Source: Diplocarpon mali (Eukaryota > Ascomycota > Leotiomycetes > Helotiales > Drepanopezizaceae). Taken from it: a stretch of 60,606 nt of DNA. Below the pieces are notes generated by a model. That model was not told the origin of the DNA, made no database searches, and worked only from the letters and a program-made list of their open reading frames with translations. Below are positions 2,744 to 60,100 of the stretch, one piece after another. Every line of letters starts with the position of its first letter. The first letter of the stretch is position 1. The stretch lies in contig JAENRP010000242.1 in assembly GCA_024741835.1 (NCBI GenBank), positions 1 to 60,606 of the forward strand, given 5' to 3'. The translations under genes were made by a program, and so were the position numbers.

Positions 2744-3182
2744 CTAATACCTTAATAGGCTTTCAACTTTTAATAGCTTTAGTAGCCTATTATCAATCGA
2801 TACTTTATTATTAGTAGTTAAAAAGGAATAATAATAGCAGTTCGAGGTTTTGCCGTTTTCCAATTGCAAGCCTAGCTTAGGAGTCGTTTTTAATAAAATT
2901 GCAAGATCTACTTGCGGTCCTAGCTTAAGAGTCGATTTCCTAGAAATAGTAAGATCTACTTGCAGTCCTAGCTTAAGAGTCGATTTCCTAGAAATAGCAA
3001 GATCTACTTGCAGTCTTAGCTTAAAAGTCATTTCTACGAATTTCACTTGCGATCTTAGCTTAAGAGTTGTTATTAGCAAATCTATAGAATCTACTCGCAG
3101 GCCTGGCTTAAGAGTCATTTCTATTAAATTCACTTATAGTCCTAGCTTAAGAGTTATCTTTACGGATATATTATATTCTACC
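2744..3182 (-). pseudogene. Repeat-bearing coding tail, probably the 3' end of Gypsy C pol
   Basis: Both strands are open here because seven palindrome units are built on a multiple-of-three spacing. The minus frame runs from 3133 to 2744 with units such as STLKLGLQVDLTISRK. The piece begins where element A' ends, and on the far side of A' (6122) a Gypsy C chromodomain stops abruptly. The simplest reading is that A' split the Gypsy C pol near its C-terminus and this is the remainder. A Y-N-I-S segment next to the junction resembles the W-Y-N-I-S stretch of such chromodomains. No target duplication around A' supports this, so the link is inference; it could instead be the N-terminal part of Copia E. 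Confidence 0.4.
2862..3154. repeat. Array of seven 23-bp palindromes, 48/48/48/39/48/39 bp apart
   Basis: Copies start at 2862, 2910, 2958, 3006, 3045, 3093 and 3132. Every step is a multiple of three, so 16- and 13-codon units stack without a frameshift. The plus strand is also open across the array (2850-3299), reading units like STCSPSLRVDFLEIAR. The best preserved copy is at 3093. Confidence 0.9.
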
Positions 3183-3432
3183 TATTATAAGAGGGAGCAG
3201 GAACAATATAAGAATAGGCCTAAGGGAAGACCAAAGACAAAGAGGGAGGAAGCACCACAAGCGGGCTCTCCGAAGATAAGAACTAAGACAATTCACTAGT
3301 TAGAGGTAGAATAAGTAATTAGCATTACGCGTTATCTTTAAGTATAATAGTAGTCTTATATATATCCCTTTCTTAATCCTCATCTAATTATATAACCTAT
3401 ATTATAAGATCCTTTACTTCTAGGTCTCTATA
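3183..3432 (-). repeat. LTR of element A' (3' LTR, left)
   Basis: Starts TATTATAAGAGGG and ends GGTCTCTATA. It pairs with 5872-6121 at identical length. The ends fit TG...CA after RIP. Shares a core (AAGAATAGGCCTAAGGGAAG) with the Gypsy A LTRs. Confidence 0.85.
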
Positions 3433-3585
3433 TATGCCTTAATTAACTTAAGTAGCGGCCCTTGCTACTATTAGCGAAGATATAAGACTCTTATAAGTTA
3501 AGAATACTAATCCCTATTTATAAGAATAATAAGTGCAAGTAGAGTTAGTACCCAAAGTTGTAAAGATAGGGAAGAGGAGAGAGGG

Positions 3586-3606
3586 TTTTTTTTTTTTTTT
3601 TTTTTT
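3586..3606. repeat. Poly(T) run of 21
   Basis: Uninterrupted T run followed directly by a palindrome at 3608. The matching place in Gypsy A holds the assembly gap (23506-23550) followed by T's and a palindrome. Confidence 0.95.
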
Positions 3607-3607
3607 A

Positions 3608-3630
3608 ACTCATAGGTCAGGCCCGCGAGT
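3608..3630. repeat. 23-bp palindrome copy
   Basis: ACTCATAGG arm against CCCGCGAGT, one base after the poly-T tract, in non-coding DNA of A'. Confidence 0.85.
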
Positions 3631-3730
3631 GGATTTTAGAGAAATATATAGAGGGAGAGGGGGAAGGGAGGAGGTGCGGTAGTAAACGAATAAAAATGAT
3701 AAAAACTCCTTTTCCTCCTTTCGTAATGCG

Positions 3731-3753
3731 ACTCTTAGGCCGGGCCTATAAGT
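3731..3753. repeat. 23-bp palindrome copy
   Basis: ACTCTTAGGCC, G, then the right arm decayed to CTATAAGT by RIP. Lies in the A' 3' block. Confidence 0.88.
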
Positions 3754-4161: not shown

Positions 4162-4184
4162 ACTCTTAGGCTAGGCTTATAAGT
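4162..4184. repeat. 23-bp palindrome copy at the gag C-terminal side of A'
   Basis: Occupies the same place as the Gypsy A copy at 36893, so it predates the split of A and A'. Flanked by the matching sequence that follows (TTCTAAAGCCTT). Confidence 0.85.
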
Positions 4185-4199: not shown

Positions 4200-5700
4200 T
4201 GGATTTCTCTTTGCTTCTTTAGTAACTTCTAAAGCCTTCGAATGTTCTTATACTAGGCTTTTAAGATCTTTAGTAAAGGAGGAAGTAGGCTCTTTTTCCT
4301 TTTCTATTACCTTAATAGTCCTTTTGCTAAGGTCTGATTTTAAGGTAAAGGCCGAGAAGTCTTTGAATTAAGCGTATATTATAAGATTACGCTTATCAAT
4401 TCTAAAATGCTTAATAATCTTATTTCAAAGGCTAGTAGGTAATTTAAGTAAGAAAAGGCATTGTCTTTCAACTTTACTAAGAATCTTTTAATTGATTAAG
4501 GTATTCGACACTTAAGTGAAGGTCCGATAGTAGTTTTTAAGTTCCTTAGGAGTGTAAGTAATAAGAACAAACTCCTTTAAAAAGGCTAGAGTATTGCGAA
4601 TCTGCTATCTATTAAATTCCTTAAATTCAGATTTAAGAGCTTTAATAAGTAGTTCTTAGGACTTGCGAAGCTTCTACTTAAGTAGAGATTTGATAATATC
4701 TTTACTAGATTGGTTATAGTAGTAAAGAAGTCGATTGATCATCTTATTAGGTCTAATGCCGAAATTATAATAAGTCTTCTTATATTATTTAAGGAAATTA
4801 GTAATATTAGCTCTAGTGAAATAAGAAGCGCTAGGGGAACTAAGGAAGGGAAAATGATTAATGATAGCTTTAAAGGCGGCTATTATCACTTTATTTATTT
4901 CGATAAGAGGGGAGCTAGGTCGAATATAGGGCTTAAGGTATTTCGAAGAGTTCTTAGAATCCAAGTCAATCTTAAAGTGATTAAGATAAGCTTAAAAAGA
5001 TTTAGGCAAAGGGTCGGTAGGAGGTTTAAAATTGATATTTTTAGTATTTTTAAGTATTAATATTAAAAAAGTAGGTGCAGTTATCAAAGGGAAAGGTAAA
5101 GAACTTAAGTTATATAAAATTGCATTTTTATATTCCTACTCGCAAGCTTGGCCTAAGAGTAAAAATCCAGCTTCTGCTAAAAGTTTATTTATACTTTGCT
5201 AAGACTTCTTTAATAGGTGCAAAGTAGCAAATAAGGGTACTGCAATTACTAGCAGTAAGAAAAGGTTTATTAAATTAAAGACTAATTTTTAAGATAAAGT
5301 TTCTAAAAAAGATTCATCTTAGCTTTTAAGATAATTCCTATTGGTTTTTAAAATTAGTATATCCTAAGGGTTGTTTTTAAAGTAAAGAATAGAGTTCTAT
5401 CAAGTAAGGGCAGCTAAAGTATCTAATTTAGCTTTTTAAGAAAACTGAAGAGATACTCCTAATTAGAGCTTTCATTTAGTATTATATAAATACTCGAAAC
5501 TGCTATTATTTAAAGTAGCTATTATAGCTAATCAAACTTCTTCGTATTGGAAAGGCTGGAAATCCGATAATCGTACTAATAAGCTGATAATTTAAGCTTT
5601 TTAAATTAAAGGTAGGAAAGGCGGAATAGGGGCCGAAATGGGAAAATCTAAGGTTATTAATAATAGAAAGTGGCAATCGACAGTTCTAAATAACTAAGTG
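4200..5700 (-). pseudogene. Gag remnant of element A'
   Basis: On the minus strand about 4380-4620 reads KELKNYYRTFT, KILSKVERQ, LFLLKLPTSL and NKIIKHF, a Ty3/Gypsy gag (retrotrans-gag) pattern closely matching the Gypsy A gag. Glutamines have become stops. An open plus-strand stretch at 4710-5060 is a shadow. A palindrome at 5138 lies upstream in the same unit. Confidence 0.65.
5138..5160. repeat. 23-bp palindrome copy
   Basis: ACTCGCAAG...CCTAAGAGT. Same place as the Gypsy A copy at 37902 but with the two arm types swapped: CGC type on the left here, CTA type on the right. Confidence 0.85.
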
Positions 5701-5786
5701 ATTGCAAGGTCGATAATAAAAGAATAACAACCGATAGTTATAAATAATTAAATAATTATTGTTTTAAAAGGGGTTTTCAAAGGGTT

Positions 5787-5814
5787 GATCTCTTATTTGC
5801 AAACTAAGAGAATC
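5787..5814. other. Leader hairpin of A'
   Basis: GATCTCTTA, loop-side TTTGCAAA, then TAAGAG-ATC: an inverted repeat about 60 bp inside the 5' LTR on the minus strand. The same hairpin is kept in Gypsy A at 38524-38550. Its position in the leader suits an RNA packaging or dimerisation structure; that role is inferred. Confidence 0.55.
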
Positions 5815-5871
5815 AAAAGGAGAAGTCGTATAAAGACGAAATCTCAAAGGAATTGTCCTTACGTAGGTCAC

Positions 5872-6121
5872 TAATATAAGAGGGAATAGGAATAATATAA
5901 GAATAGGCCTAAGGGAAGACTAAAGATAAAGAGGGAGGAAGCACTATAAGCGGGCTCTCCGAAGATAAGAACTAGGACAATTCACTAGTTAGGGGTAGAA
6001 TAGGTAGTTGGCATTGCGCGCTGTCTCTAAGTACAATAGTAGTCTTATATATACCCCTTTCTTAATCCTCATCCGACCATATGACCTATATCACGAGATC
6101 CTCCACTTCCAGGTCTCTACA
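5872..6121 (-). repeat. LTR of element A' (5' LTR, right)
   Basis: 250 bp, TAATATAAGAGGG to GGTCTCTACA. Less mutated than its partner (more CA/TG remains near 6080-6121). On the minus strand it is followed by GTGACCTACG, a candidate primer binding site shared with Gypsy A. Confidence 0.85.
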
Positions 6122-6330
6122 TTAATTATCGGGATCTTATCTTATTTAGCTAACTTTATAATAGAATTACTTTTACTATATATTAAATGCTAAGATTTAA
6201 TCGACTTCCTATTTTAAATAGGTATTAATAATAAAAGGTTCTACTAGCAGGTTGATCTACTTAAGTAAGGGATTATTAGCGGCTTTCCTTAGTCTATTAG
6301 CGTAAAAGATATTATATATTCGATAAAATA
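6122..6330 (-). pseudogene. Gypsy C chromodomain, truncated
   Basis: Minus frame reads NRLRKAANNPLL, EVDxILAFNI, then YYKVSxIRxDPDN: the C-terminal chromodomain of chromoviruses, which usually continues WYPAxxF. It ends at the A' LTR. In related elements this domain guides insertion into methylated-histone heterochromatin. Confidence 0.6.
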
Positions 6331-6479
6331 AGGGTAGGTTTACTTTATAAGAGTAGTAGATTAAGCTAATAATTTTAAAAGGGCCTATAATAGGGAAGTT
6401 GAGTTTATTAAAAGGTTAGTCTATTTTCTAAGCTCTCTTTATAATATATATTAAGTCTCTTAAGCTAAAGTCGGGTTAG

Positions 6480-7400
6480 CGTCGCTTTTTATTTACTTAT
6501 TTAGATTATCTCTCTTAAGCTACTAGTATAGATTCTTAGGCAAATTAGACTACTTATCGATTCTTTTGGCCTATACTTACGCTTTTTCCATATTTAACTT
6601 CTCCTAAGTATTTAAGGGCTTAGTAGTATAAGTAGTCTAGTCAAAATCCAAGCGGGGTTTATAGCTATAATCGACTATAGAAGGGAAGAGGCCAGTTGAC
6701 TCGTTTAGGCAAGCGGTGCTAGCAGCATCTATAGCAAGAAGTAAGTCGGCCTAATCGTCTTAAAAGTAGTTAATAAAAGGGCGTAGTTATATATTAATTA
6801 TCTAATTAATAGTCTTAATTTATTTATCTATTTAAGTATGCTTAAAGGTCGATAGCTAGAGTTTAACCTACGCTAGCGTTAATAATTCATTTATAAAGTC
6901 GGAGATAAACTAAAGTCCTCGGTCGCTAGTAATAATAAAAGGGCTCCTTTTAAACCTTTAGATGTATTAGTAAAATAAGGAGGCGGCGGTCTGCGCAATA
7001 GCCTTCTTTATTATTAGTAGGCAGATATACCGCTTAAAGAATCGGTCAATTATAATAAATATAGTATCGCAGCTATTGCTAATTAATTTAAGAGTATAGA
7101 AGTCTATAGATAAGTTATCTTATATATATAAAGGGATAGGCAATAGTTTAAGGAATCCTAGCGTTTTATCTTAAGGTTTATATAAATGTTGGCAGTTATA
7201 ATAGTTAGCGATATACCTCTTTACGTTGCAGTAGTATATAGGCTATTAGTAATAGTATTAAAGGAACTATATAGTCTTAATTCTTCTAAGGTAAGTTATT
7301 AACGTACTATTATAGATTTAGTAGAATAGGTAAGTATAGAGATTGTCCAGTTTTTTAAGAACTACTAGCCTTCTATCGTATAAGAGTAATCCGTCCTTTA
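6480..7400 (-). pseudogene. Gypsy C integrase
   Basis: Placed from its position between the chromodomain and RNase H, and from retained integrase-like blocks on the minus strand. Stops at former Gln/Trp codons throughout. I did not locate all three catalytic acids with confidence. Confidence 0.5.
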
Positions 7401-7649
7401 GTAAAGTCTAAGGAGTCTCTTTTTTAATAGCTTTCTTTTGCTTTAATTGCAACAACTTATAGGTTCGGTTAGCATTAAGGACTTCTTCTATTATCTGGAA
7501 ATTATTAATAAAGGAGCGGTTCTTAAGTATCGTAAGGTCGATTAGTGCTATTATAAGACGATCTTAAATAATACTAATTAAGTTAAGAAGCTATCGGGTT
7601 CTCTTAGCTTCTTTTATAGCTTTTTAAGTAAGCGTGAGTTCGTCTTTTT

Positions 7650-8920
7650 ATAATAGTATATCGGCTATTATATTCTCCTTTCTAAAGTAATAGGTAATTT
7701 AATAATTATATCTTAAGAGTATATCTATTTATTAGATTTATCGTTTGTTAAGGAGTTTTTTAATACTAAAGTACTTTAAAGCTTTATAATTGGTAATTAC
7801 TAAAAAGCTTAATATACTTTATAACTCTGCGTCCTATTCCTTTAAAGCTAGTATAATTGCTAATATCTCTTTATTATAGATTTTATAATATAATTCTATA
7901 TTCTATAATCCTTTAAAGAAGAAGACAATAGGGTACTATTATTTATTGCTCTTATCCTTTTAATTAAACACTCCGGCCGCTGCTAGGTCTAAGTAGTCGG
8001 TCTCGATCCTCGTTAGTTAGTGGTTTTTAAAGTATAGTAAGGTAGGCGCGTTTAATAGCCGCTTCTTTAATTATTCGAATGCGTCTTATTATTCCTTAAT
8101 TAGAATGAACGTCAGGCTGGTCTCCTTTATTATTAGCTAGTTAAAGGGGCGCGCAATTCGACTATAAGCGTTGATAAATCTCTAATAGAAGTTATAGAAT
8201 CCTAAGAACAATTGCACTTATTTCTTTATTAATAAGAGGGTTTATTCTTTAATAACCTTAACCTTAGTAGGGTCGACCTATACTCCTTAATTAGTAATGA
8301 TAAATCCTAGGAATCTAATACTAGTGACTTTGAATTCGCACTTTTTAATATCAACTTATAAGCTAGCTTTACTTAATCTATCTAAGACCTATCTAATATA
8401 GCGTTAGTGCTCTTCCTTAGTTTTTAAAAAGATTAGGATATTATTAATATATATAAAGCAAAAGTCGTTTAAGTATTCTATTAGGATAGTATTAATATAC
8501 TATTAAAAGGTAGCTAAGCTATTATATAATTTAAAAGGGAGTATTACTAGTTTAAAAGAGCCGTACCTTATCTTAAAGGCTACTTATATTATAAAGTCAA
8601 GGTTTATTAAAATGTGATAAAACGCGTAGTAGACGTTAAGCTTTATAAAGAGCGTCGCATTCCTAAGTCGGTTGAGGATTTCTATAATTAAAAGGAAGAA
8701 GTACTAGTCTTTTTTAATAAGTCTATTTAATTCTTAATAGTTAATATAAAACCGCAGGCCGCCTTTAGGTTTCTTTATAAATAGGATAGGCGATAAAAAG
8801 GCAGTATTAAATAGTTATATAAATCCCTTTTTTAAATTGTCTATAAGGTATTCTCTCATTTTCTTAAGTTTAAGCTTACTTATTTTATATAAATAGGCGG
8901 TTTTTATTATTAGTAGTAGT
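7650..8920 (-). pseudogene. Gypsy C reverse transcriptase and RNase H
   Basis: Minus strand about 8900 to 8380 gives LKKMREYLIDNLKKGFI, SPILFIKKPKGGLRFYINY, LNRLIKKDxYFLLLI, LFIKLNVYYAFYHI, and FIYINNILIFLKT. This is the Ty3/Gypsy RT order. The YxDD box reads Y-I-N-N (asparagine codons at 8440-8445): both catalytic Asp lost. RNase H follows at about 7650-8050. Confidence 0.78.
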
Positions 8921-9399
8921 CCTTTAAACTTAATCTTATAATTAATTAGTTATAATAGAAGTAGTATATTCGTAGCGCTTTTAAAGAAGTATATAACTAG
9001 GTTATAAAAGAAGGGTAGTAACTTAGCGCATAACTCGTAGGCTTCCTAAGGTCCTAAAGCATTATATTTGTTAAGTACGTTAGGTTCTTCCTCTTCTATT
9101 ATATAAATTAGGGTCCTATCTATCCTTAAGTCTAATTAGCGAACGATAGCTTCCTATCGAATTAGAATATAAAGAGTTTTCCTATTTCTTTTTTCAAAGA
9201 GATAATCTAGTTCTATAAGCGTAATCGACCTAATCTTAGTATTAGTTTAATATAAACTAACTCTAAAGGCTAGCCCTAAGATTGTCGATATATCTATACT
9301 TATCGGTTAAAGGGTATTAATATCAAGTTCCTCTTTTTATTATTTATAATTCATTAAGTGTATATTAAAGTCCTATATTAGTATATTCTTAGACTTAGT

Positions 9400-12999: not shown

Positions 13000-13202
13000 A
13001 CTCTTAGGCCTAGCTTATAAGTGATATTTGCGAACTCGAATTCCACTTTTAGGCCTAGCCTACGAGTGATATCTGCGAACTCAGATTCTACTCCTAGGCC
13101 TAGCCTGCGAGTGATATCTGCGAACTCGAATTCCACTCCTAGGCCTAGCCTATAAGTGATATCTGCGAACTCGAATTTTACTCCTAGGCCTAGCCTGCGA
13201 AT
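13000..13202. repeat. Array of five palindromes at exact 45-bp spacing in Gypsy B linker
   Basis: Copies start at 13000, 13045, 13090, 13135 and 13180. The 15-codon unit reads ISANSNSTPRPSLRV in the pol frame between protease and RT. The minus-strand Gypsy B copy has two units at the same place (58135-58202). Units differ only by transitions typical of RIP. Confidence 0.93.
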
Positions 13203-21408: not shown

Positions 21409-21467
21409 ATTCGCAGGCCTGGCTTATAAGTGACTTTTCTATATACTAATTCCACTCTTAGGCCTAG
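21409..21467. repeat. Palindromes 1 and 2 (left 14 bp) of the RNase H-integrase array
   Basis: Copy 1 is 21409-21431. Copy 2 starts at 21454 and is cut after 14 bp; its last 9 bp are at 42850-42858, giving 23 bp. Copy 3 is 42881-42903. Removing Copia F restores steps of exactly 45 and 45 bp. Confidence 0.92.
21463..21467. other. Target site duplication CCTAG, left of Copia F
   Basis: CCTAG at the centre of a 23-bp palindrome; its mate is 42845-42849. Confidence 0.93.
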
Positions 21468-23070: not shown

Positions 23071-23074
23071 CTTC

Positions 23075-23571: not shown

Positions 23572-23594
23572 ACCTACGGGCCAGGCCCAGGAGT
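23572..23594. repeat. 23-bp palindrome copy
   Basis: Follows the poly-T/gap, matching the A' copy at 3608. Confidence 0.85.
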
Positions 23595-23996: not shown

Positions 23997-24019
23997 AGTT
24001 ACGGGCCAGGCCTAGGAGT
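23997..24019. repeat. 23-bp palindrome copy in X2
   Basis: Minus-strand reading NTTPRPGP in the X2 frame. Confidence 0.85.
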
Positions 24020-24818: not shown

Positions 24819-24841
24819 ACCTGCGAGCTAGGCCTAAGAGT
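24819..24841. repeat. 23-bp palindrome copy in X2
   Basis: Minus-strand reading STLRPSSQV in the X2 frame. Confidence 0.88.
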
Positions 24842-26048: not shown

Positions 26049-26071
26049 ACCTATAGGCTAGGCCTGCGACT
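26049..26071. repeat. 23-bp palindrome copy in X2
   Basis: Minus-strand reading LSRRPSLxV in the X2 frame. Confidence 0.88.
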
Positions 26072-26234: not shown

Positions 26235-26257
26235 ACTTATAGGCCGGGCCTATAAGT
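26235..26257. repeat. 23-bp palindrome copy in X2
   Basis: Minus-strand reading TYRPGLxV in the X2 frame; 186 bp (62 codons) from the previous copy. Confidence 0.88.
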
Positions 26258-27881: not shown

Positions 27882-27904
27882 ACTCGCAAGCTAGGCTCGC
27901 GAGT
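27882..27904. repeat. 23-bp palindrome copy in X1 region
   Basis: Minus strand gives TREPSLRV; phase with X1 not followed this far. Confidence 0.85.
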
Positions 27905-28766: not shown

Positions 28767-28789
28767 ACTTGCGGGCCAGGATTGCAAGT
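28767..28789. repeat. 23-bp palindrome copy in X1 region
   Basis: Minus strand gives TCNPGPQV; phase with X1 not followed this far. Confidence 0.82.
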
Positions 28790-30152
28790 GACAATTGGAT
28801 TTTCTTTATTAATAGCACTTGCATCTCTCTTTATTAAAACGACTTAATTGTAAAGACTAAGACTAATTAATTAAAGAGGTTTAGGGTAGGCTATAAGCTA
28901 ATAGGCTCCTCTACTTTTCGCTATTATAGCTAAGAGGTAAAGTTTATAATATATCTAAAGGACTTAATAAATAAGATTGAATATTATATTATAAAGAAAA
29001 TAAGAAGGTATAAAGGTCGCATTATCCATAGGGTAGAAGTAATAAAGGTATATCTCTACTTCTTATCTTATAATAGAGAGGAATGTACTTATAAAAGCTC
29101 TATTATTAGTAGTAAAATTGTCGGTTAGGAAGCGGCATCCGAAGGATTTAGGTATTATAATTGACCCTTCTTCTTCTATTTCCTTTTGCTATTTATTACT
29201 TAATAATATTAAAAAGAAAGAATTATTCTATTTAATTAGCTTTAACGCTTTTAAGGCTTTAGGATCAGCTTTGAATTTTATAGCACTTAAAGATACCTTT
29301 ATTATTAATAGGTTAGATTTGCGTATCCTTAAAGAGATAAAGAATTAATTATTAAGGTAGATTAGAAAAAGATCAATATCTTCTACTATATAGAGAAGTT
29401 CGAGGTATTTAATAGTTTTATTAATATTAAATCCTTTATAATTAAGACTATAGTAAACCGAAAGAGAGCAAATATAAAGGTTGTAAAGTCTTTTCCCTTC
29501 GATTCTTACGCTAGGAAAATACTATTAAAAGCGAGTTTTTATTATAGAAGATACCTAAATATTATATCGTTCTTTAAGCTTAAGATTGAGAATAACCGAT
29601 TGAAGTATATTACTATAATTATAAATGTCTTAATTAATAGATTCCTTTTTATATTCTCTTTCTTGTAAGATAAAATAGTCTCGCTTAGCATTTAAGAGAT
29701 TAGGTTCTTAACTTTTATAATTATTAAAGAATTAAATAATATCTATAAGGGTAAACTCGTCTAGGATAAGCTATTAAATCTATTTAATAGCTCTTCCTAT
29801 TATCTTTAAAGTAGTAGGAATAGGGTCTTCCCTTATATTATCGTTTTTAAAATGGTTGTAAATAGATATAAAGAAGTTAAGAACTAGCTCCTTTAAGTTA
29901 TTAAGGAAGGAGTTTAAGCGAGCGCGCAATCCTTTGGTTTTAAATTGCAAATTAGCTAAGGTAGCTATTAAACGATTTATCCTTTTTAAAGGTTAAGCTA
30001 AAATTGGTTATTTAGCTAAAGGAGAGTCCTTTAAAGATTCTGAAAATTCTAAAGAGGCTATATTAAGCGTTTAAGCAATTTATTTAATAGCGGTTTCTAA
30101 AATTATTTCAACTAAAGGTAGGTTAGGTCTAGTTTTAAAATTCTTACTTTTA

Positions 30153-34814: not shown

Positions 34815-34837
34815 ACTCGCAGGTCCAGCTTATAAGT
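34815..34837. repeat. 23-bp palindrome copy in pol
   Basis: Minus strand TYKLDLRV; between protease and RT. Confidence 0.83.
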
Positions 34838-36892: not shown

Positions 36893-36915
36893 ACTCCTAA
36901 GTCGGGCCTATAAGT
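36893..36915. repeat. 23-bp palindrome copy in gag C-terminal part
   Basis: Minus-strand reading TYRPDLGVRSNPRIKELK, in frame with a coiled, Gln/Lys-rich segment. Orthologous to 4162 in A'. Confidence 0.87.
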
Positions 36916-38300
36916 GAAAGGTATGACTATTAGGTTCTTCTTTACCTCTTCTATAATTTCTAAAGCCTTTAAGTGTTTTTAAACCAGGCTCTTAAGGTCT
37001 TTAGTATAGGAGGGAGTAGGGGCTTTTTCCTATTCTATAGTATTAATAGTTCTCTTACTAAGATCTGATTTTAAAGCAAAGGCCGAGAATTCCTTAAATA
37101 AAGCGAAGGTTATAGGGTCTTGCTTATTAATCCTAAAATGCTTAATGATCTTGTTTCAAAGGCTAGTGGGTAATCTAAGTAAGAAAAGGCGGCCTCTTTC
37201 AACTTCGCTAAGTATTTTCTAACTAATTAAGGTATTTGATATATAAGTAAAAGTCCGATAGTAGTTCTTAAGTTCCTTAGGAGTATAAGTGATTAAAACA
37301 AATTCCTTTAAGAAAGCTAAGGTATTGCAAATCTGCTATCTATTAAATTCGCAAAATTCAGATTTAAGGGCCTTGATAAAGAGTTCTTATAAACTATAAG
37401 CTTTCTATTTAGGGAGGGATTTGATAATATCTTTACTTATATAATTATAGTAGTAAGGAAGTCGAGAAATCATATCCTCTTATATAATATTAAAATCGTA
37501 ATAAGTTTCCTTATATTACTTAAGGAAATTAGTAATATTGGCGCTTATAAAGTAAAGAGCGCTAGGGGAACTAGGGAGGGGAAAGTGACTAGTAATAGCT
37601 TTAAATGCAGCTATTATTATTTTATACTAATCCTCTGGGTTAATAGAATCTATAAGAGGCAAAGGGGAAGCTTTAATATTGTAAGATTAATTACTAGGAG
37701 GAGTACTTTAAAATTTAAAAGGGCTTAAAGAATGATTAGAATCCGAGTTAATCTTAAAGTAACTAAGATAAGTTTGAAAAGATTCGGATAAAGGGTTAGT
37801 AAAAAGTTTAAAATTGTTATTATTTCTAGTATTTTCTAGTATTAATATTAAAAAAGTAGGTAGCAGTCTTAAGTTATTTAAAGATATCTTTTTATCCTCT
37901 TACTTATAGGCTAGGCCTAGGAGTGGAATTCCGGATTCTATTAAAAGTTTAATCTAAGTTTGCTAAGAGATTTTAAATAAGTGCTAAATAGCTAATAAGA
38001 GCGTTGCGACTAATTGCAATAAGATAAGGTTTACTTAATTAAGGACTAATTTCTAAAATAAGGTTTATATATAAGATTCTTCTTAGCCTTTAGGCCAATT
38101 CCTATTAGTCTTTAGAATAAAGGGGTCTTTAAAGACGATTCTAAGGCAATTTTTAAAGTTCTATTATCTTAAGGCAGCTGAATTATTAGATTCGGATTTC
38201 TAAGGATTCTAAGGAGATACTTCCAATTGGAGTTTGCGCTTGGTATTACTTAAGTATTCGAAACCACTGCTATTTGAAATTGCTATTATAAGGTTCGCTA
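36900..38300 (-). pseudogene. Gypsy A gag
   Basis: Matches the A' gag (4200-5700) block by block, including the minus-strand retrotrans-gag segment near 37130-37300 and a conserved downstream region with the palindrome at 36893. Gln-to-stop changes are throughout. Confidence 0.72.
37902..37924. repeat. 23-bp palindrome copy in gag
   Basis: Minus strand NSTPRPSLxV. Same place as 5138 in A'. Confidence 0.87.
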
Positions 38301-38853: not shown

Positions 38854-40400
38854 CTAAGAAGATTCAAAAGGAAGATAAAGAGTTAGATAATAACCTCTTT
38901 AGGTATACTATATTATTACTAACCCTAGGGCCAATTCTCACTTGCGAGCCGGGCCTAGGAGTCAATTCCTCACTAGGAGGCGACTCCTCCCTAGGGCCAA
39001 TTTCCACTTGTAGGCCGGGCCTAGGAGTCAGTTCTTCTACCTTTTGCTTTTTATTAAAATTGAAGAATCGTTAGCTATATAATTAATATAGGTGCTAGTA
39101 AGCATATCTCTAATGATCTCTTTAAGTTCATTTCCTATACTATTTAAGATAATCTACCCTCTTTGAGTATAGTTAATAGATCTATTCAACCTCTTGGCGT
39201 TAGTACTTATAAAGTTAATGCATTTAAATCTAATAGAAAGGTATATATTCTTAAGTTAATTAATACTCTTTATATACCTTAATTACCTATTTGCTTATAC
39301 TTAGGTAGTAAACTTAATAAGATCAAAGGCTTCTATTGAAATAGTAAGCTATTCCTATCTAATAAGAAGGAAATTTGCACTATTGATAATAATATATATA
39401 TTAATAAGGAATAGCCTTCTACAGACTCCTTTAGTTATATAAGTGGATATGCTCTCTTAGCTGCTATTGAGAATGGACCTTTTGATATTAAGCTCTAGCA
39501 CTATCGATTAGGCCACGCTAGCTTATAAACAGTTAGAAAGACCCAATCTACTATTACTAATATATAGATTAAGGAAACAAAATTAAGGAAGATGCGAATC
39601 TGCGCTCTTTACGAGAAAGGCAGACCTCTCTAATACGTTAATAAACGTTTAGCTTACCCTTAACCTATAAAGGCACTTAACGAGCTATATATCGATATGG
39701 TTCATCTAAAGCCAACTAGCCTTAATAGCTATAAATACGCTTTTATCTTCACTTACTTAGCTATAATAGCTAGATAAGAATGGACTTATATAAACAAATC
39801 TAATGCCTTTAAGGCAAATAAGAAAATGATCAGCCTCTTATAAACTTAGTACAATTGTATAATTAAGTAGTAGAGAACTAATAGAGGTAAGGAGTACTCT
39901 CTTATATAGATGCGAATACTTATAGAAAACCTTAGTATAATTTTAGAGGAATCTACTCTATATATGCTAGAATAAGATAGTAGATTGGAACGATTAATTC
40001 ATATACTAATAGAAAAGTTGCGAATAGCTGTAATTGACTAAAATATCCCCTCCTTTCTTTAGCCTTACCTCCTTCTTTTGATGATATATATTATTAATCT
40101 TACTGCTTTTGATATTCTAAGTGGCAAGACTTTATATAAGGTCTTTTAGGACGATATTAAGCTTAATAAGCCTTATACTCCTTTAATTAAGTATCTTAGA
40201 GTACTAGGCTATTGCATTTATATGCTAATTAAGAAAGAAAAGCGAATTTAGAGTAATAAACTCGCTTTAAGAGTAGAGGTAGGTACTCTTATCAGATTTG
40301 ATAGCAAAAGTATCTATTAGATCTATATACTATTATAAATAGGTGAAAAGATTATTCGATCATCTTACGTTCGATTCGATAAAGATGGCCTAATTATAGA
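38854..40400 (+). pseudogene. Copia F protease and integrase
   Basis: After the Gypsy A insertion the frame reads KIQKEDKELDNN, then a palindrome pair, then YIINIGASKHISND near 39077 (protease; family D-T-G-A with Asp to Asn and Thr to Ile), HYRLGHASL near 39500 (GAG-pre-integrase), zinc-binding CALYEKG region, then LNELYIDMVHLKPTSLNSYK near 39680 (integrase core, first Asp kept). Confidence 0.82.
38940..39028. repeat. Palindrome pair in Copia F, 66 bp apart
   Basis: Copies at 38940-38962 and 39006-39028 read TCEPGLGV and TCRPGLGV in the polyprotein frame. Between them half-units (CTCCTCCCTAGGGCC) look like broken copies. Confidence 0.9.
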
Positions 40401-40422: not shown

Positions 40423-40541
40423 ACTCCTAGGCCGGGCCTGCGAGTCACTTCTTAAAATAACGATATTTTCACTCCTAGGCTAGGACCGCGAGTTAATACT
40501 GACTCTTACGATAATTCCACTCCTAGGCCGGGACCGCAAGT
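40423..40541. repeat. Array of three palindromes at 48-bp spacing in Copia F
   Basis: Copies at 40423, 40471 and 40519 lie between integrase and RT, reading TPRPGLRV, TPRLGPRV and TPRPGPQV in frame, followed by LPTLRKRGRPPSLK. Best preserved array in the window. Confidence 0.94.
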
Positions 40542-42346: not shown

Positions 42347-42420
42347 ATTAAGGGGTGATTTTCTTTTTGCACTTCTATTAAGGGGTGATTTTTTTTTACT
42401 CCCAGGCCGGGCCTGCGAGT
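42347..42420 (+). repeat. ATTAAGGGGTGATT repeat pair and palindrome in Copia F 3' region
   Basis: ATTAAGGGGTGATT occurs at 42347-42360 and 42377-42390 (30-bp step) and once more at about 40408-40421, each time close to a palindrome (42398-42420 and 40423). Confidence 0.85.
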
Positions 42421-42849: not shown

Positions 42850-42947
42850 TTTATAAGTGGTTTTAACGCAGATCAATTCTACTCTTAAGCCTAGCCTATA
42901 AGTGGCGATTATGCTAATCGCGCTAATAGAAGCACTTATTAACCTAA
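42850..42947 (+). pseudogene. Gypsy B, piece 3: end of array to integrase start
   Basis: 98 bp. Holds the right end of palindrome 2 (42850-42858), palindrome 3 (42881-42903) and VAIMLIALIEALIN. The uninterrupted copy has the same stretch (GCTAATCGCGCTAATA) running straight on into its integrase. Confidence 0.9.
42943..42947. other. Target site duplication CCTAA, left of Copia D
   Basis: Mate is 47940-47944; the empty site in the other Gypsy B copy reads CCTAACGTC. Confidence 0.93.
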
Positions 42948-51060: not shown

Positions 51061-51149
51061 AGATGGTTTTAAGCCTCCCTATATATTAGTATAAGTAAAA
51101 TTAAACCCTATCTTGCGCTTCCTTCCTACTTGCTATTACAAAGGAGATG

Positions 51150-52379: not shown

Positions 52380-53215
52380 TAACTTTGCGCTAGGTCGCTA
52401 GCGCTCCCTCGGGAGCTATAACCCTAGCGCGCTTGTCCTAGCGCCTACTAGGCAATAAGCCGCCACTGCTATCGCCGCCGCCTTTGCCGCCGCCGCCACC
52501 GCTGCCTAAGAGCCCCGCCCCTGCTGCATATTATATACCAGAGCTTATAATAGAATATAATAACGCGTATATGCGCTATATTATACGTAAGAGTACTAGT
52601 AATCTCGATTATTAGTACTTTAATAGTACCTTTAGTGCGCGTTGCGTTTATTATATTATACTAAGCAATAGCTGCTAGTAGGCCAGCGGCCCTCTCCTCG
52701 CCTCTTAAGAGGCTATTATATCGGCTTATGCCTGCGGCGCCTTTAAGGAGGAGGTAGCGCTACTGCTTAATATAGTAAAGGGTGCGCTTTAGAGCTTCTA
52801 TAGTACGTTTTATCGAGTCTCGTTGAGTTCTAGGCTGATTTTAAAAGATAGGAGCGATTAGACCCTAGTGCTAGGAGGGCCCGCCACTCTTGCGAGTAGT
52901 AGTACTGCTGCCTCCTTTGCTCCTGGCATACCGTTCCTATTCGCTCCTAGCCCCTTTGCCGTAGCTGCCGTCGCTCCTGTCCCTGCCACCGCCGCCGCCG
53001 ACCCGTTTGTATCTCCGTTCGTCTCCCCTGCCCCTGTTATCTCCGCTCCCGCCTTCGCCGCCGCCGCACCCCCCGCCTTCGCCCCTGCTATCGCTAGTGT
53101 GTTCGCCAGCGGGCCTCTAGCCGAGGGAGTGCCTTTAGGCCTCTCTCGAAAGGAGATCTGTACAGAGCTTATAGCTATAGCTTTGCAGCTCTTAGCCTTA
53201 GCTAAGAGGATCTAA
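52380..53215 (+). pseudogene. Ala/Pro-rich gag-like fragment
   Basis: GC-rich with GCC repeats near 52470-52500 and 53000-53070. An open frame of 115 codons (52868-53215) encodes PAPVISAPAFAAAAPPAFA and ends LIAIALQLLALAKRI. Long Ala/Pro tracts from GCC/CCC codons with few CA/TG sites would resist RIP, which may be why it stays open. Probably the tail of a gag like that at 50155; not recognised as any known domain. Confidence 0.4.
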
Positions 53216-53399
53216 GAAAGGGTCGCGCCTTATAATAGCAGCTTAGGAATATTACCTATTTTATATTTTTAAAAAAGGAGAGCTTTTATAATACGCTTTA
53301 TAAGAGAAAACAAATGAATGTAATTATAAGAGAGTAAGAGCTTATAAGTATAAGTCTCTTAGTAATAAGTGACTACTTACTAGCAAGTGCGAGTTATTA

Positions 53400-54334
53400 A
53401 ACGATTATTTAAAAGCTCTAAAGGTTTAATAAACGAATAAAGCTCTTAAACTTCTAGCGGTCTAGGTTCTTAATAAGCCTATTTGCGTATATCTCCTTAG
53501 TAAGAAGGTAGATTATTTAAAAGCTTCCTCTCTAATACTCTTAGCAGATCTATATATTATTAATTTCGATATATCAAAGGCTTATTTTAATCTTCTTATT
53601 CTTTATAATAATTAGCCGAATCGTCTATTAATTATTATAATATATATTCAATTTAAAGAGGAAGTCTATGCGAATCTCTTTAAAAAGGCGTTTTATAGCT
53701 ATTATCTCCTTTGCAATAGAAACTATACTATAGAGTTCTGCTTTAGTAGAGGAAAGTGTAATAGTCGCTTAGCAATTCGCTTTTTAAGTAATCGGTCCTT
53801 TAAATAAGAAGAAGACGTATCCTTAAGAGGATCTATAGGTCTTTTAATCATCTTCGAAAGAAGCATCTAAAGACGCGACCAATTAGTATTCCCTAGCCTT
53901 AAAGCTATAGGTAATTCTTAAGAAGCGTATATTATAGAAGTATTAAAGCGTCTAGTCTATAGCTAAGAGGTACTTAAAGCTTAGATTAATTAGAAAGAAA
54001 GACAGTTAGAAGGCTGCGAATGCAACGTCTAGGCGTATTATAATTGCTATATAGAAAATAGAGCCTATTTTCTTTTAATACTCCTTTACCTTTTCTAAAG
54101 AAGCTTGCCCTAAGTTCTTAATAAACTCCTTCTTTAGTAGTAGAGTACTAGGTACTCTTCTTATATCAGCTCCGAACTTTTAAGCGATCTTCTTAATATA
54201 GGTATTATAAACTAAGGAGATCCTCTTTGCTTTCCTATCTTAAATAATCCTTACTTTAAGGAACTAGGAGATATCTCTTATAATAGTAAGATTGTATGCC
54301 CTCTTTAGGTCTTTAATCAAACGAGTCGCCTGAT
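53400..54334 (-). pseudogene. Copia G copy 2: RT end, RNase H, C-terminus
   Basis: Minus strand from 54330: DQTNYLIKDLKRAYNLTI, RDISxFLKVRII, RKAKRISLVYNTYIKKIA, GSIFYIAIIIRLDVAFAAF, then TKAELYSIVSIAKEIIAIKR, LFKEIRIDFLF, and GSFxIIYLLTKEIYANRLIK. More complete than copy 1 but more RIP-mutated. Cut at 54334 by the Gypsy B LTR. Confidence 0.8.
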
Positions 54335-54578
54335 TGTTACGACTTGCTCTGGAGCGTACAAAGGGGCGATAATCGAGTAACGCTAACTATATTACCTCAA
54401 GAGGTACGCTATATAATAGAGAAGAAAAGATAAAGAAGAGAGAGTCTCTAGTAGAGCTCCTCTAGGATAAGTACAGGTGCTTTACTAGCGTATACGTGAT
54501 CTAGCCACCTCGCTACCTTAGCGTACACCTGACTTTGATATATGATATAACTGTATATATAATGCGGCTGTAATACTA
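54335..54578 (-). repeat. Gypsy B 3' LTR
   Basis: TGTTACGACTTGC on the plus strand to TAATACTA, 244 bp, bounded on the gene side by a polypurine tract. No second copy in the window to confirm the limits. Confidence 0.6.
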
Positions 54579-54592
54579 CCCCCCTCCTTTGA
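54579..54592 (-). other. Polypurine tract of Gypsy B
   Basis: Minus strand CAAAGGAGGGGGG directly before the LTR. Confidence 0.75.
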
Positions 54593-54779
54593 AAAACTGC
54601 GCCTGCGCAGTTATATCTATAGGCGTATTATCCTCTAGGTCCCTATAATCGTCAACTCTATTATTATATGACCTAAGCTAGCTTAATAGCACCCTTAGTA
54701 GCCCCTTAGCTTAAGGGTTCTTTAGATGGAAATCTCGAATAGTATGCGGCGCTATTATAGTATTAGAGCATAGGTACTA

Positions 54780-56190
54780 TTCGAGGTCTTCATTAGCTCC
54801 TTTCTACTTAATTTAATATTCGAGCTTCTTAGCTTAAATATAAGATCCAATTATTTCTTCTATCTCTTACTCCTCTTATTCTAGCAGTACTTTAATTAAG
54901 GCAAGAGGTTCCTAAGCTTAGCCTAGCAAAGGGTTAGGAACGTATTTCCGCAGTAAGTAGGAGTAGAATATAGGATAGATCGAATAGAGCGAATTAGGCA
55001 ATTGTAGCTTCTAGCTTTCTCCTAGCTTTTCTAATACTTTTACTAGGCTGTACTACTTATTAAAGAGCTTTTGGCTCAGCCGGTCTAGTTTCCAATTTTT
55101 AATACTAATTAGCATATTATCTCCTATAGTCCAATCAACTAGCTAGCAGTAAAGATCTGCGAGCCATTTTATTTTAGCCTATTATACTTAAAGAGATAAT
55201 TAAGCGAATTAGACTACTTTTTAAGCTTTAGTAGCTATATAAAGCGCTATTTTACGATTTAATCTCTTAGTTGCTATCCGTAGAGGCTCTAGGTTAATTA
55301 AATTCCAAGAGGAGCGAGCTTTATAGCTATTTAATACTTGGAAAGGGGAAATTTGCCCTAGGGATTTATAAAGCAAGGTTAATTAGGCAATATCTATTAA
55401 AGGCAAGAGACGACTCTAATTATCTTAATAGTATAAGTAGAATAGTCTAAGGCGTTATTTTAAGTACTAGTTTATAATCTTAATTTAACTATCGATATTA
55501 GGGTTATAAGCTATAATTAGCTTGACCTTTATACTTAATATTCAATAGAGCTCTTTCTAAAAGGAAGAGACGAATTAGGCGCCTCTATCTAATAGAATTA
55601 AATCAAGTATATTAAAATGGTATATCTAGTGAATTAAAAACAACTTTGCAAGGCCTTTTGCGTCGACCGAATTATAATATAAAACTGAAATAGCCTTCTT
55701 TAATAACCTATTAATAATTATAAAGGTAAAATTATAACCGAGTTTATTAAGCGGAAGCTCTATAAAATCTATTATTAAGTGTTAGTAAGCTCGTTTGGGA
55801 ATTGGCAAGGGTTATAGGAAACCTAGGGTTTTATTATAATAAGCTTTTATTCTTAAATAATAATAATTCTAAATATAAGTGCCGACGTTGCTGCTAAGGC
55901 TTTTCCAATAGTATTTTCTTTCTATTAGAAGCCTTATTTTCCTAATTCTAGCGTATGCGACGCAAGGTTACTTATATATATAATGAATTAGGGCTATTCG
56001 CAATTCGGGAGGTTAGGATAGTATAACAAGTCTACCTTAGAAGAAGAGTTTGCCTTAGCTAAGTTTATAATCGAGGCTATAGCTCTACGCCTTATCTCAG
56101 AACTTCTATAGCTTAAGGGAGGTCTTCTTAGCTTAAATGACTTTATTAATAATATAGTAGCTTGCTATATTATACTCGACCTTAGACGTT
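54780..56190 (-). pseudogene. Gypsy B (minus copy) integrase and C-terminus
   Basis: Inverse match to 47945-49247, including the empty Copia D site (CCTAACGTC near 56180). The stretch from 54600 to 54900, lost from the plus copy, carries the C-terminal end. Confidence 0.75.
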
Positions 56191-56232
56191 AGGTCGGCAG
56201 GTGCCTTTATTAGCGCGATTAGCATAATTGCT

Positions 56233-56255
56233 ACTCGTAGGCCGGGCTTAGGAGT
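56233..56255. repeat. Single palindrome between RNase H and integrase
   Basis: Minus-strand reading STPKPGLRVAIMLIALIK. The plus copy has three units here at 45-bp steps. Confidence 0.93.
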
Positions 56256-56319
56256 AGAATCGCCTTTAGTAGTAAGTACTTCTATAGAGAGCTTATCATT
56301 AGGCAAGAGCTGCTAATAG

Positions 56320-57720
56320 TATAAAGCTCGTTTCCTAGCTTTAAGAGGGGTCAGCTCCTAGTCTTAATAGGAGAGTGTATTAGCTAGCGTATTTGTTATA
56401 CCTATTTGGTATATAATAAAGAAGTTGAAATCAGTAAAGAACTCCGCCTAGTAAGCTTGCTAGGCTATTAAGTCCTTAGTTATTATAAAGTACTTAAGGG
56501 CTTTATGATCTATATATATATATACTATTTTCTAAGCCTTAAGTAGCTCTGCCTTATACTAATAGAACAATTTAAAAATCGCTAGGAGCTCTTTATTATA
56601 AATAAGGTAATTCAGCTCGGCGTTATTTATAGTCTTTAAGAAGTACCTAATTAGATGGTAGTTCTTATCTTCCTAGAGTTAGGAGAGTACGCTGGCGACT
56701 ATGCCGTCGGAGGCGTCGGTCTTAAGCCTTATCTGCTTCTAAGGGTAATAGTAGTATAAAATCGGGGTCGTTTAAAGCCTTAAGCGTAAAGCTTCTTAAG
56801 CTTCCTTATAAGCGTTATTAAAGTTAAAAGGAACGTTTCTTATAAGAGCTATTAAAGGTCGGCAGATATAACTATAGCTTTGAATAAACCTTCGATAGAA
56901 GTTATAAAACCCTAGGAAGCTTTATACGCTGCGTACGTTCTTGGCGTATTTCTACTCTTAAATGACTAAGACCTTATTAAGGTCTACCTTAATTTTATAA
57001 ACTCTAATAATAAACCTTAAGAACTTAGTCTTAATAATCCTAAACTCGCTTTTCTTAATATTTACTTAAAGGCTATAATATTAGAGAATTCCTAAGATCT
57101 TTTTAATATAAATCTTATAGTTAAGGGAGTTTTCTAAATAGATTAGAATATTATTTAGGTAGGTAGAGTAGAGATTGTCGAGGTGCTTAAGGAGAATATT
57201 ATTAATAAACCTTTAAAAGGTAGTAGGCCTATTTATTAGTCCGAATGGCAAAACCTTATATTTATAGGTCTTATAACGCGTACGAAAGGTAGTTAGGTCC
57301 TTAGCGTTAGCTAATATATAAATATAGTAGAAGGCTTATTATATATCGATTTTTATAAAAACATAAGCTTTCGATATGCGTACTATTATCTTATTAATAA
57401 GTGGAATTAGGTAGAGGTCTTTTTTTATTAAGGCGTTCAGTTTCCGATAATCGATATATAGATATAAGGAGCTATTAGCTTTTCTAATAAAAAGGATTAG
57501 GGCTGCTTAAGGGGAAGTCGAAGCTTTGATAAATCCTTTATATAGGTTCTTAAGAATATAGCTCTTAACCTTTAAGAGCTATTTATCGATAAGGCGGTAA
57601 AGGGGTTCGATTATTAAGTTATTCTCGCCTATTAGTTCGATTTTATAATCTACCCTTAGCCTGGTTTCTAATAGCTAATTAAAGGCTTAGCGATTAAAGA
57701 TATTCTTAAACTTAGCGTAT
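56320..57720 (-). pseudogene. Gypsy B (minus copy) RT and RNase H
   Basis: Reads LILFIRKANSSLYLYIDY, KLNALIKKDLYLIPLINKII, YKVLPFGLINRPTTFQRFI, STYLNNILIYLENS. The catalytic box at 57150-57161 is Y-L-N-N, the same double loss as in the plus copy. The KDLYLIP stretch is the empty Gypsy Y site. Confidence 0.85.
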
Positions 57721-58134
57721 TAAGGCGGGAGCTTCTAGTCTATTAGCTTATTGTTACTCTTATACTTGGCTTATAGCGCCGAACTAAGGCTAAGGGAGCT
57801 AATTTCAACTTACTTAGCTAATTCTCGGCGATTGATTTCTTAGTGATTGATTTCTTAATTTAGATTATAAATAAAGCTTATAAATATAAACTCTTTAAGC
57901 GCTAGTTCTTAAGTTTATATAGCTTATTTTACCTTAGTTATAAAGCGGTAGTAAAGGGCACCGATCGCTAAAGCTAAGATTAGGCTGATCTAATAAGCTA
58001 TCTTTAAAGGAGCGTTCCTCTTTATTAAAAGAGGGAGCAAAGGGTCTAGTACTTTTAGCAAGGCCTTCTTTATATAGTTTAGATCTCTTTTTAAGTCTTT
58101 AAAGAAACTGCTATCCTTAAGTTTATAAGAGGCC

Positions 58135-58202
58135 ACTTATAAGCCGGGCTTAGGAATAGAATTCGAGTTTGCAGTTTTCACTCGCAGGCTAGGCCTAGGA
58201 AT
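58135..58202. repeat. Palindrome pair at 45-bp spacing in the Gypsy B linker
   Basis: Copies at 58135 and 58180, read on the minus strand as IPRPSLRV and IPKPGLxV between protease and RT. Five units occupy this place in the plus copy. Confidence 0.92.
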
Positions 58203-58699
58203 AGAATTCGAGTTATTGCTTACTAGCACCGAGAGCTAGGCTTAGGCCATTCTTAGGTCTTTATCCTTAGCGTCTATTATAGCTGCTTAACGATCGATAT
58301 CTTATTAAGCTATTAAGGGTTTTATTAACCGTAAGAGATCGATTAATATACGTTAATTAAAGTAAAGGATAATAAGCATATCCTTAGGCTAAGATATACT
58401 ATTTTTCCTCTTTCCATAGGACTATTTAAGGTTATAGTACTTTAAGAACTTCCTACCGATTAAAACGTCAGTTGCTCCTAAGCTTATAATTAAAAAAGGG
58501 AAGTTTATTTATCGCCTATTAATTATAAGAGTAAGTAAGATAGCAAATCGAATGGTTTCTCCCTTAAGGCTATTATAGCTAGTAAGGGTAATCGGTTTAA
58601 GCAATTTAATAAACTTCACCTTAAGTCTTTAAAAGAGCTAGTATATTAAAGATATCTTAAAAATATTAAAAATATTAGCTCTACTATTAATATAAGTAA

Positions 58700-60100
58700 C
58701 TATTTTAATAAATGATCTATTTTAAGCTAATTTTATAAGAATTAAGAACTAGCAGCCGCTTATTAATAAGTAGGAATCAAAATCTAAGTCTTTTTATAAA
58801 TTATAACCTATACTATAATAGGAGTCTTTACTATAACTTAGCAATTTCCTAATAGTAGGTCGTTTTTTATCTTAACTTTAGCTATTATAAACTCGCCCTA
58901 TTTTTTTAACTTAAGGCAGTCTATTATATAGTAATTAAAGGCTTTACAGTTATAGCAAAGACTAGATAACGGCTTTAGGCTAGCAGACCTTTCTTAATAG
59001 GCCGCTGGCAAAGGGAAACGAGTATAAGGAGCTAGGGAGGTAGCTATAGCTATAGGTCTTTATAATTCCCTTTTTAGTATATTAAGGACGCAGTCCTTTA
59101 AAAAGGAGAATGCGATAGCAAGGGCGACTTATCAAGTGTTATAGGCTTCTTCTTACTTAATATTATAGGCCTCGCGGTCTGTAATAGCTAAGAACTTATT
59201 TAAAGTAGTATAATTATTATTTATTTTATACTTCTTTACTTAAAGGTTATTCTTTAAAGCTAAAGAGACCTTTTTATAAATATTATTAAACTAGCGAGAC
59301 TAATCGATCTTACTAACTATAATAAGGGTAATAAACTTAGATTAGAACTTATTATATAATATTAAACCTATAGTTAATCTATTATATTTAAGCTTAGCAG
59401 ATTAAATATAATTATAATTAAAGAACTTTTGATCTAAGACCTTAAGGATATTAGTAGCATATATAAACTTATTAGTAAAGATAGGATTTATATATTATAA
59501 GATTAGGTTTTAAGCTTTACCTATTATATACTTAAAGTAGGCAGTGATTTAGTCCTCTTTTAAAGTGAAGTTGCTTAAGTACTTTTAAATAAATACCTTT
59601 ATAGCTATCTTTTAAGCGTTATAAGTGATTTCGCCTTAATAGTTGCTAAAATAGGTTTAAAGGTACTTGATTTAATAAGGGTCGATAGCTAGGACTAAAG
59701 GTCGGATAATCGAAAGGTAGTAGTTTAAAGGAAGTAGTAAGTCGGTAGTAAAGGACCGAGTATTCTAAAGGCTAGCATTAAGAGAAGAAGGGGTAATAGT
59801 ATTATTTTAAAAAGCAGCAGCTATAGTAGTACTAATAAGGTTTGCGATTTCGGCCTATTAAGTAGCTAAGAAGAAAGGGGCCGATATAGTAAGGGTAGAT
59901 ATTATTAAAGAGAGCGTATCTTTTTCCTTAACTTCAATTGATAGCAATAGGGTATTTCGAGAATCCACTTATAGGCTAGGCCTAGGAGTAGAATCTGTAT
60001 TAAAGGAGGTTTCTTCTTAAGTAGGCTTAGGAGAAGGAATATCTCTAGGACTAGGGTTAGTAGTAAGGCCTAGAGAACTGGTAGCAGTAAGGCCTAGTAG
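58700..60100 (-). pseudogene. Gypsy B (minus copy) gag and protease
   Basis: Zinc knuckle near 58930-58970 reads CYNCKAFNYYIIDC (Cys mostly kept, His to Tyr). The gag N-terminal part near 59830-60000 reads STPRPSLxVDSRNTLLLSIE, with an in-frame palindrome, then DTLSLIISTLTISAPFF. This half is missing left of 12106 in the plus copy. Confidence 0.72.
59967..59989. repeat. 23-bp palindrome copy in Gypsy B gag
   Basis: Minus-strand reading STPRPSLxVDSRN, in frame with gag. Confidence 0.9.

Follow-up and report, generated by a model that had tools for sequence, protein, structure and literature searches.

The stretch analyzed here (the window) comprises 60,606 nucleotides of the fungus Diplocarpon mali (contig JAENRP010000242.1 of assembly GCA_024741835.1). 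It carries many copies of a short palindromic DNA motif, which are associated with a Gypsy element (E2), a Copia element (E3) and an unclassified repeat (E1), as well as with further motif contexts that are unclassified (E4, E5, and E6). The motif was followed into the source genome. The copies in the window, with the array or site to which they belong, are as follows.

2864..3154, + strand: E6 array of 48- and 87-bp tandem units with the motif; the copies at 2958-2980, 3093-3115 and 3132-3154 pass the cut-off; open on both strands
3608-3630 and 3731-3753: two single motif copies, no element assigned
4162..4184, - strand: motif at site E4_12; among 4 copies, forward stops are rarest in phase 0
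5138..5160, - strand: motif at site E4_11; among 4 copies, stops are rarest in phase 1
13000..13202, + strand: E2 (Gypsy) site 0a, in the linker between a protease-like region and the reverse transcriptase (RT); five 45-bp units starting at 13000, 13045, 13090, 13135 and 13180
21409..21431, - strand: motif with flanks that cluster to E2 site 1a
23572..23594, - strand: E1 site 8, past the end of the second open reading frame (ORF), adjoining a run of N
23997..24019, - strand: E1 ORF2 site 6; TPGPGPRL or TPGPGPQL in intact homologues
24819..24841, - strand: E1 ORF2 site 5; three of four homologues have TPGPGSRV, P0002 lacks it
26049..26071, - strand: E1 ORF2 site 1c; SRGPGPRV or TRGPGPRV in homologues
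26235..26257, - strand: E1 ORF2 site 1b; TRGPGPRV in homologues
27882..27904, - strand: E1 ORF1 site 4
28768..28790, - strand: E1 ORF1 site 9, found by its flanks, below the motif cut-off
34815..34837, + strand: single motif copy, no element assigned
36893..36915, - strand: motif at site E4_12
37902..37924, - strand: motif at site E4_11
38940..39028, + strand: E3 (Copia) site 2, two motifs 66 bp apart; in locus L024 upstream of and in frame with RVT_2
40423..40541, + strand: E3 (Copia) site 0b, a run of three 48-bp units; in L024, RVT_2 lies downstream of this site and shares its frame
42398..42420, + strand: E3 (Copia) site 7; in L024 downstream of RVT_2 and out of frame, probably non-coding
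42881..42903, - strand: motif with flanks that cluster to E2 site 1a
56233..56255, - strand: E2 (Gypsy) site 1a, in the RNase H/integrase linker
58135..58202, - strand: E2 (Gypsy) site 0a, two 45-bp units
59967..59989, - strand: E2 (Gypsy) site 10, upstream of 0a; stops are fewest in local phase 0

Copy Number in the Window and the Genome

With ACTCNNAGGCCNGGCCTNNGAGT and up to three mismatches, 25 matches were found in the window, against 0.01 expected from 100 shuffles. A transition-tolerant rule detected 33 copies, and none in any of five first-order Markov shuffles; the motif at 28768-28790 is an extra copy, detected by its flanks only. By this rule no copy is present in 5160-13000, 13202-21409 and 42903-56233 of the window or, apart from the flank-found copy, in 27904-34815. 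The repeat to which an earlier, sequence-only reading had drawn attention is real, but its figure of 43 copies was not reproduced (25 or 33) and depends on the cut-off.

We scanned the source genome (49,369,952 bases in 676 contigs) for several forms of the motif. The form typical of repeat-induced point mutation (RIP) has 333 exact copies and ACTCNNGGGCCNGGCCCNNGAGT has 55, the reversed control giving 0 in both cases, and 5,605 copies were found when up to three mismatches were allowed, against 40 for the reversed control. About 50 places each were listed out of the 333, 55, 118, 649, and 5,605 matches reported in this text; those of the 5,605-copy set are spread over many contigs of the 49.4-Mb assembly. 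The copy number is thus far above chance in the window as well as in the genome, in agreement with the initial view of a short palindromic family that occurs genome-wide in unrelated elements (Gypsy, Copia, and E1). Exact searches of a prokaryote and a viral contig collection with the less mutated form (see below) gave 0 and 0 matches. Assemblies of Diplocarpon coronariae are described as containing approximately 34% repeats, chiefly Copia and Ty3 (PMC11527701). In the literature on palindromes in fungi and in Diplocarpon, searched with most subscription journals outside its scope, we found no published description of this family.

Extent of the Dyad and Its Mutational History

The less mutated consensus of the motif is ACTC-SYGGKCC-N-GGMCCRS-GAGT, which encodes T(R/P)GPGPRV. 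Genome-wide, 649 copies with an exact core have a pyrimidine at position -2 and a purine at +2, without a single purine at -2 on either strand, and the same two bases are found in 156 of 156 relaxed copies and in 21 of 21 distinct sites. At -3 a pyrimidine is present in 18 of the 21 distinct sites on each side, and -5 and -6 lean toward purine. Because of the bases at -2 and +2 in the exact-core copies, the dyad unit is at least 27 bp long (YN-ACTC-SYGGKCC-N-GGMCCRS-GAGT-NR), rather than the 23 bp that had been proposed.

A pattern that allows all codons for the peptide matches at 118 places. In the 50 copies listed, base 5 of the arm varies between C and G, base 6 between C and T, and base 9 between G and T, with the remainder fixed. 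The pattern itself fixes the non-synonymous bases, which leaves codon third positions as the only free test; here all 50 listed copies use the palindromic bases (T at 3, A at 21, Y6/R18, and K9/M15), although they come from few site families and are not 50 independent events. Among the distinct sites, T at 3 is kept in 21 of 21 and A at 21 in 18 of 21.

The arms also retain a record of RIP. Of 312 arms, 195 have T at base 6, and 185 of these have A at base 7; of the 117 with C at base 6, 59 have A at base 7. This dependence is the expected outcome of a change from TpG to TpA, in line with the dinucleotide preference of RIP. Intact D. coronariae proteins have TRGPGPRV, SRGPGPRV, TPGPGSRV, or TPGPGP(R/Q)L at motif sites, with Gly (GGN) at the place of the AGG core from which the repeat had been described; these peptides therefore indicate GGN-CCN-GGN in the original and not AGG, and the AGGCC core is largely a product of RIP. 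It had been argued that this core lacks CpA and TpG and so cannot be erased by RIP. Such a RIP-resistant core is rejected on the basis of the Gly codons of the homologues, the 55 exact copies of ACTCNNGGGCCNGGCCCNNGAGT and the dependence between bases 6 and 7. An initial guess at the original form, ACTCSCAGGCCNGGCCTGSGAGT, was found at just 3 places and was dropped.

Carrier Elements and Motif Positions

Twenty loci (L005-L024) were picked for having a listed exact copy of the RIP-type form. Grouping 154 relaxed hits from the window and these loci by their flanks gave 16 clusters, two of which mix several sites and two of which are single hits; most clusters correspond to one fixed position in one element family. 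Three unrelated carriers can be shown: E2 (Gypsy), E3 (Copia), and E1, a repeat without known domains. Of the at least four lineages originally suggested, the fourth is unproved, since E4, E5, and E6 are unclassified.

In E2, motif positions are found upstream of RVT_1 and also between RVT_1 and rve. Sites 0a and 1a lie upstream of rve and in the rve frame (L006, L012, and L016; by coordinate arithmetic), and a piece of the E2 polyprotein is 89% identical to two D. coronariae proteins. In E3, sites 0b and 2 are located upstream of RVT_2 in the RVT_2 frame (L024), and site 7 lies past RVT_2 by approximately 830 bp, in a different frame (L024; by coordinate arithmetic). Similar to site 7, 12 of the 50 listed ACTCNNGGGCCNGGCCCNNGAGT places are found 802-838 bp past an RVT_2 match.

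E1 is a RIP-mutated repeat of at least approximately 9 kb (window 22321-31260, - strand), which is also present in L005, L008, L011, L018, L020, and L021. It contains two tandem paralogous ORFs (28% identity over 632 residues) and seven motif sites. With stops read as X, an E1 ORF has four protein matches, all from D. coronariae. Together with the E2 polyprotein matches, this puts the source genome at or close to D. coronariae, the apple-blotch pathogen. No Pfam domain above the cut-off was found in the intact homologues P0003 and P0005, and the ten native E1 pieces gave just two Pfam matches, both below the curated cut-off. The earlier designation of this region (approximately 22.3-31.3 kb) as a retrotransposon is not supported by these homologues. 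In 7 of 7 copies that reach the same point of the E1 3' end, this point is followed by a run of N (window 23506-23550; L005 7707-7725; L008 1-190; L011 7668-7700; L018 7685-7733; L020 7668-7794; L021 2310-2364).

Both strands of the E6 array (window 2747-3296) have an open, repetitive reading (153 and 129 residues), and a protein search with the array gave no match at E 0.01. In the window and L005-L024, no stop-free frame of at least 180 residues overlaps a motif. Since 18 of 20 fetched integrase loci (up to 3.3 kb each) lack any copy, presence of the motif is probably family-specific. Three integrase-core matches lie in uninterrupted frames of 964-1024 residues, unlike most others (G000 C102:133297, C200:6203, and C498:6053).

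Several sites are arrays. In the window, Tandem Repeats Finder identified tandem units of 45 and 48 bp, and motifs are also spaced at 54, 66, and 87 bp. The tandem units correspond to 15-16 residues around the 8-residue Pro/Gly motif. At E2 site 0a, copies have one to five scoring 45-bp units; the number differs among L006 (3158), L014 (3095), L007 (3021), L017 (6906-7018), and the window (13000-13202), and could possibly serve as a strain marker.

Phase 0 is favored at most coding sites, where the palindromic unit is in frame within the ORF: E1 9, 4, 1b, 5, and 6 (1c by spacing), E2 10, 0a, and 1a, E3 0b and 2, E4_12, and E6. E4_11 and E5 have the fewest stops in phase 1 (a weak signal, with 4 copies at each). 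None of the forward phases is distinct at E3_7, where a reverse phase is lowest (5 copies), and E1_8 lies past the end of the ORF.

Conservation of the Motif within Sites

Transversions are 0.35 times as frequent in the motif as in 150-bp flanks (0.0126 vs. 0.0359; one-sided P 0.007; 12 sites). Within-site scoring covered 129 copies, 7 of which had more than five transversions and were dropped (4 of 6 at E3_7 and 3 of 8 at E2_0a_last), leaving 35 transversions, of which 22 fall on five positions that are variable between sites as well. After exclusion of E3_7 (register errors in an A run) and the duplicate E2_1a_first this becomes 20 of 27, in which single-unit E2_0a copies may count twice.

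In a flank-anchored comparison of 15 sites, 100 site-by-copy rows (one duplicate removed) included 0 empty sites, with loci that had been picked for the motif at one site; sites other than the selecting site of each locus form the fairer sample. Seven of the 100 rows fall under the motif cut-off and are yet plainly motif; two rows at E3_7 and one at E1_5 were clipped by the register. The E3_7 row of the window was not aligned correctly by the automatic register; the transition-tolerant scan shows the copy there.

A Possible Recognition Site for a Dimeric Protein

The explanation that we favor, at a probability of roughly 40%, is that the motif is a dyad DNA recognition site of a dimeric protein, common to unrelated transposable elements of D. 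coronariae or a close relative. On our best reading it behaves as conserved double-stranded DNA, and not as a peptide or a hairpin. In phase 0, the bases at -2 and +2 fall at codon positions 2 and 1, respectively, so that one peptide rule fails to explain their symmetry; a constraint on the DNA rather than the peptide is supported, not proved. Moreover, pair 5/19 is a C-C or G-G mismatch in 47 of the 50 all-codon copies listed; pairing at 9/15 is possible in 31 of them. Arms that are often unable to pair, together with the palindromic choice of codons, point to recognition of double-stranded DNA by a dimer.

On this view, the DNA-binding protein would be a sequence-specific dimer, with each arm contacted by one subunit as its half-site. 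The site may have been acquired by transfer between elements, multiplied by local tandem duplication (in units of 45, 48, and more bp), and retained since binding would help the elements, most plausibly against host silencing in a manner similar to VANC and VANDAL (see below). Coding copies lie in interdomain linkers, which tolerate a Pro/Gly-rich stretch. A more specific version, in which Gypsy, Copia and an undescribed two-gene element converged on, or traded, one 27-bp trans-acting operator for one dimeric factor, we consider possible, though less likely than not.

Several observations weigh against a recognition site. No binding protein was found: the E1 proteins have no Pfam match, and the fold of an E1 homologue predicted from four sequences has a pLDDT (predicted local distance difference test score) of 30 and is unusable. 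The copies share ancestry, so the 649, 156, and 50 copies cited above do not represent independent events, and recent spread or gene conversion could also yield tight conservation. The deficit of transversions is modest, and is absent in the three E2 sites taken alone. Some sites depart from the symmetric bases (G at 21 in E1 1c, 5, and 8; C at 22 in E1 6; G at 2 in E1 1c; C at 14 in E5). With 11-13 bp, the half-sites are longer than those of ordinary transcription factors. Finally, VANC motifs are described as mainly non-coding (PMC5735166), whereas the motif here is mostly coding.

Alternative Explanations

It is quite conceivable, if short of our preference, that the motif is a selfish 27-bp palindrome of nine codons, similar to the palindromic elements of Rickettsia, which would insert at the DNA or cDNA level, survive where proteins tolerate it and be multiplied by host transposons. 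Its length, a multiple of three, is frame-neutral, the arm asymmetry occurs in both orientations relative to the coding strand, and the coding E2 copies are found in linkers of variable length, where insert size is not measurable. In three Gypsy relatives (P0013, P0020, and P0022; 61-64% identical to the query across approximately two thirds of its length), the linker joining RNase H and integrase, in which E2 carries site 1a, is free of the motif. In the linker between protease and RT, the peptide TREPGPRV of P0013 lies after, and the E2 array before, the same conserved stretch; this is a weak indication, as it rests on a peptide match, and one BLASTP alignment pairs TREPGPRV with the E2 array instead. 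The match may also reflect local evolution, as P0055, a relative of P0013, has the Pro-rich SDPEPSPTR there, with neither the motif nor a length difference of nine residues. When 126 proteins were scanned for the peptide, it was seen in D. coronariae proteins, the two query sequences and P0013; P0044 gave one further, dissimilar match. Against insertion of a mobile palindrome stand the lack of empty sites in the within-family rows described above, the persistence of the E1 sites in copies that differ by up to approximately 27% (RIP included) and the absence of a copy from 18 of the 20 integrase loci. No mobilizing enzyme was seen, nor was a target duplication visible; a target-site duplication was rejected as Y at -2 and R at +2 leave no direct repeat spanning these positions.

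Selection on the peptide, in which several proteins would use T(R/P)GPGPRV as a linker or a processing site and their Gly and Pro codons would produce the palindrome incidentally, is improbable. It would account for the phase 0 that most coding sites have in common, the positions between domains would fit a processing site, and the synonymous G at base 21 in three E1 sites (1c, 5, and 8) is an exception to the palindromic codons. Conservation of the peptide only is, however, disfavored by the palindromic third-position bases in all 50 listed copies of the 118 all-codon matches, by the constraint at -2 and +2, by E1_8 beyond the ORF, and by E4_11 and E5, which favor another phase. We regard as still less probable that a hairpin in RNA or single-stranded DNA (for dimerization, pausing or a fold-back intermediate) is the conserved feature: the fully symmetric form (the E1 type) folds at -17.5 kcal/mol, but three commoner forms reach only -6.4 to -11.0 kcal/mol, the mismatches at pair 5/19 and the limited pairing at 9/15 disfavor it, and the window has no match in Rfam. 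One ancestral domain, inherited or captured by all families, is the least credible explanation, for although two motif positions are common to the paralogous ORFs of E1, the flanks of 21 distinct (mutated) sites have no strong common sequence beyond approximately 6 bp, and the motif occupies non-homologous places in the Gypsy and Copia polyproteins plus one beyond an ORF, which supports the view that the copies do not trace to a single shared domain.

Significance

The occurrence of thousands of copies of one motif in unrelated jumping genes hints at either a common binding site or a mobile insert of unusually small size. If the motif is a recognition site, it would be a fungal counterpart of the anti-silencing motifs of plants, and help to show how one factor is exploited by unrelated transposons in a RIP-marked genome. 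If it is a selfish palindrome, it would be, to our knowledge, the first nuclear example inside the coding DNA of transposons, and the origin of short in-frame protein inserts would become testable. On either reading, the 27-bp boundary and the less mutated sequence permit a clean experiment.

Comparison with Known Systems

Rickettsia palindromic elements (RPE) are approximately 100-150 bp long and typically form a stable hairpin, a trait that the motif lacks in view of the mismatch at pair 5/19 in 47 of the 50 listed copies. In Rickettsia, Wolbachia, and Methanocaldococcus, palindromic DNA is described in frame within ORFs, typically in non-structured segments, and overlapping ORFs on the opposite strand are discussed for systems of this type (PMC2996958). 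The motif resembles RPE as palindromic DNA in frame inside ORFs, and differs from these bacterial and archaeal elements of assorted housekeeping genes in being a dyad of 27 bp or more that lies in transposable elements of a fungus and has positions that do not pair. PARCEL is described in the same source as dyad-symmetric repeat coding DNA in tandem arrays, present in mobile elements of some taxa (PMC2996958). The dyad-symmetric coding repeat and the tandem arrays are common to both, but instead of the 25-residue amphipathic tandem domain of PARCEL we find an 8-residue Pro/Gly motif that is often single. The GC clusters of yeast mitochondria are an example of short palindromic mobile DNA in a fungus (PMC4478555); unlike these organelle sequences, the present motif has 5,605 copies over many contigs of the 49.4-Mb assembly.

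The target motifs of VANC proteins in the VANDAL elements of Arabidopsis are described as short and multiplied by tandem duplication, and that of VANC6 is found in an element outside VANDAL as well (PMC5735166). They differ from the motif described here in their length (8-9 bp), in being written without dyad symmetry and in that their binding protein is known. As with the VANC motifs, the motif is shared by unrelated elements, namely the Gypsy element E2, the Copia element E3, and E1; the VANC motifs set a precedent for such sharing (PMC5735166).

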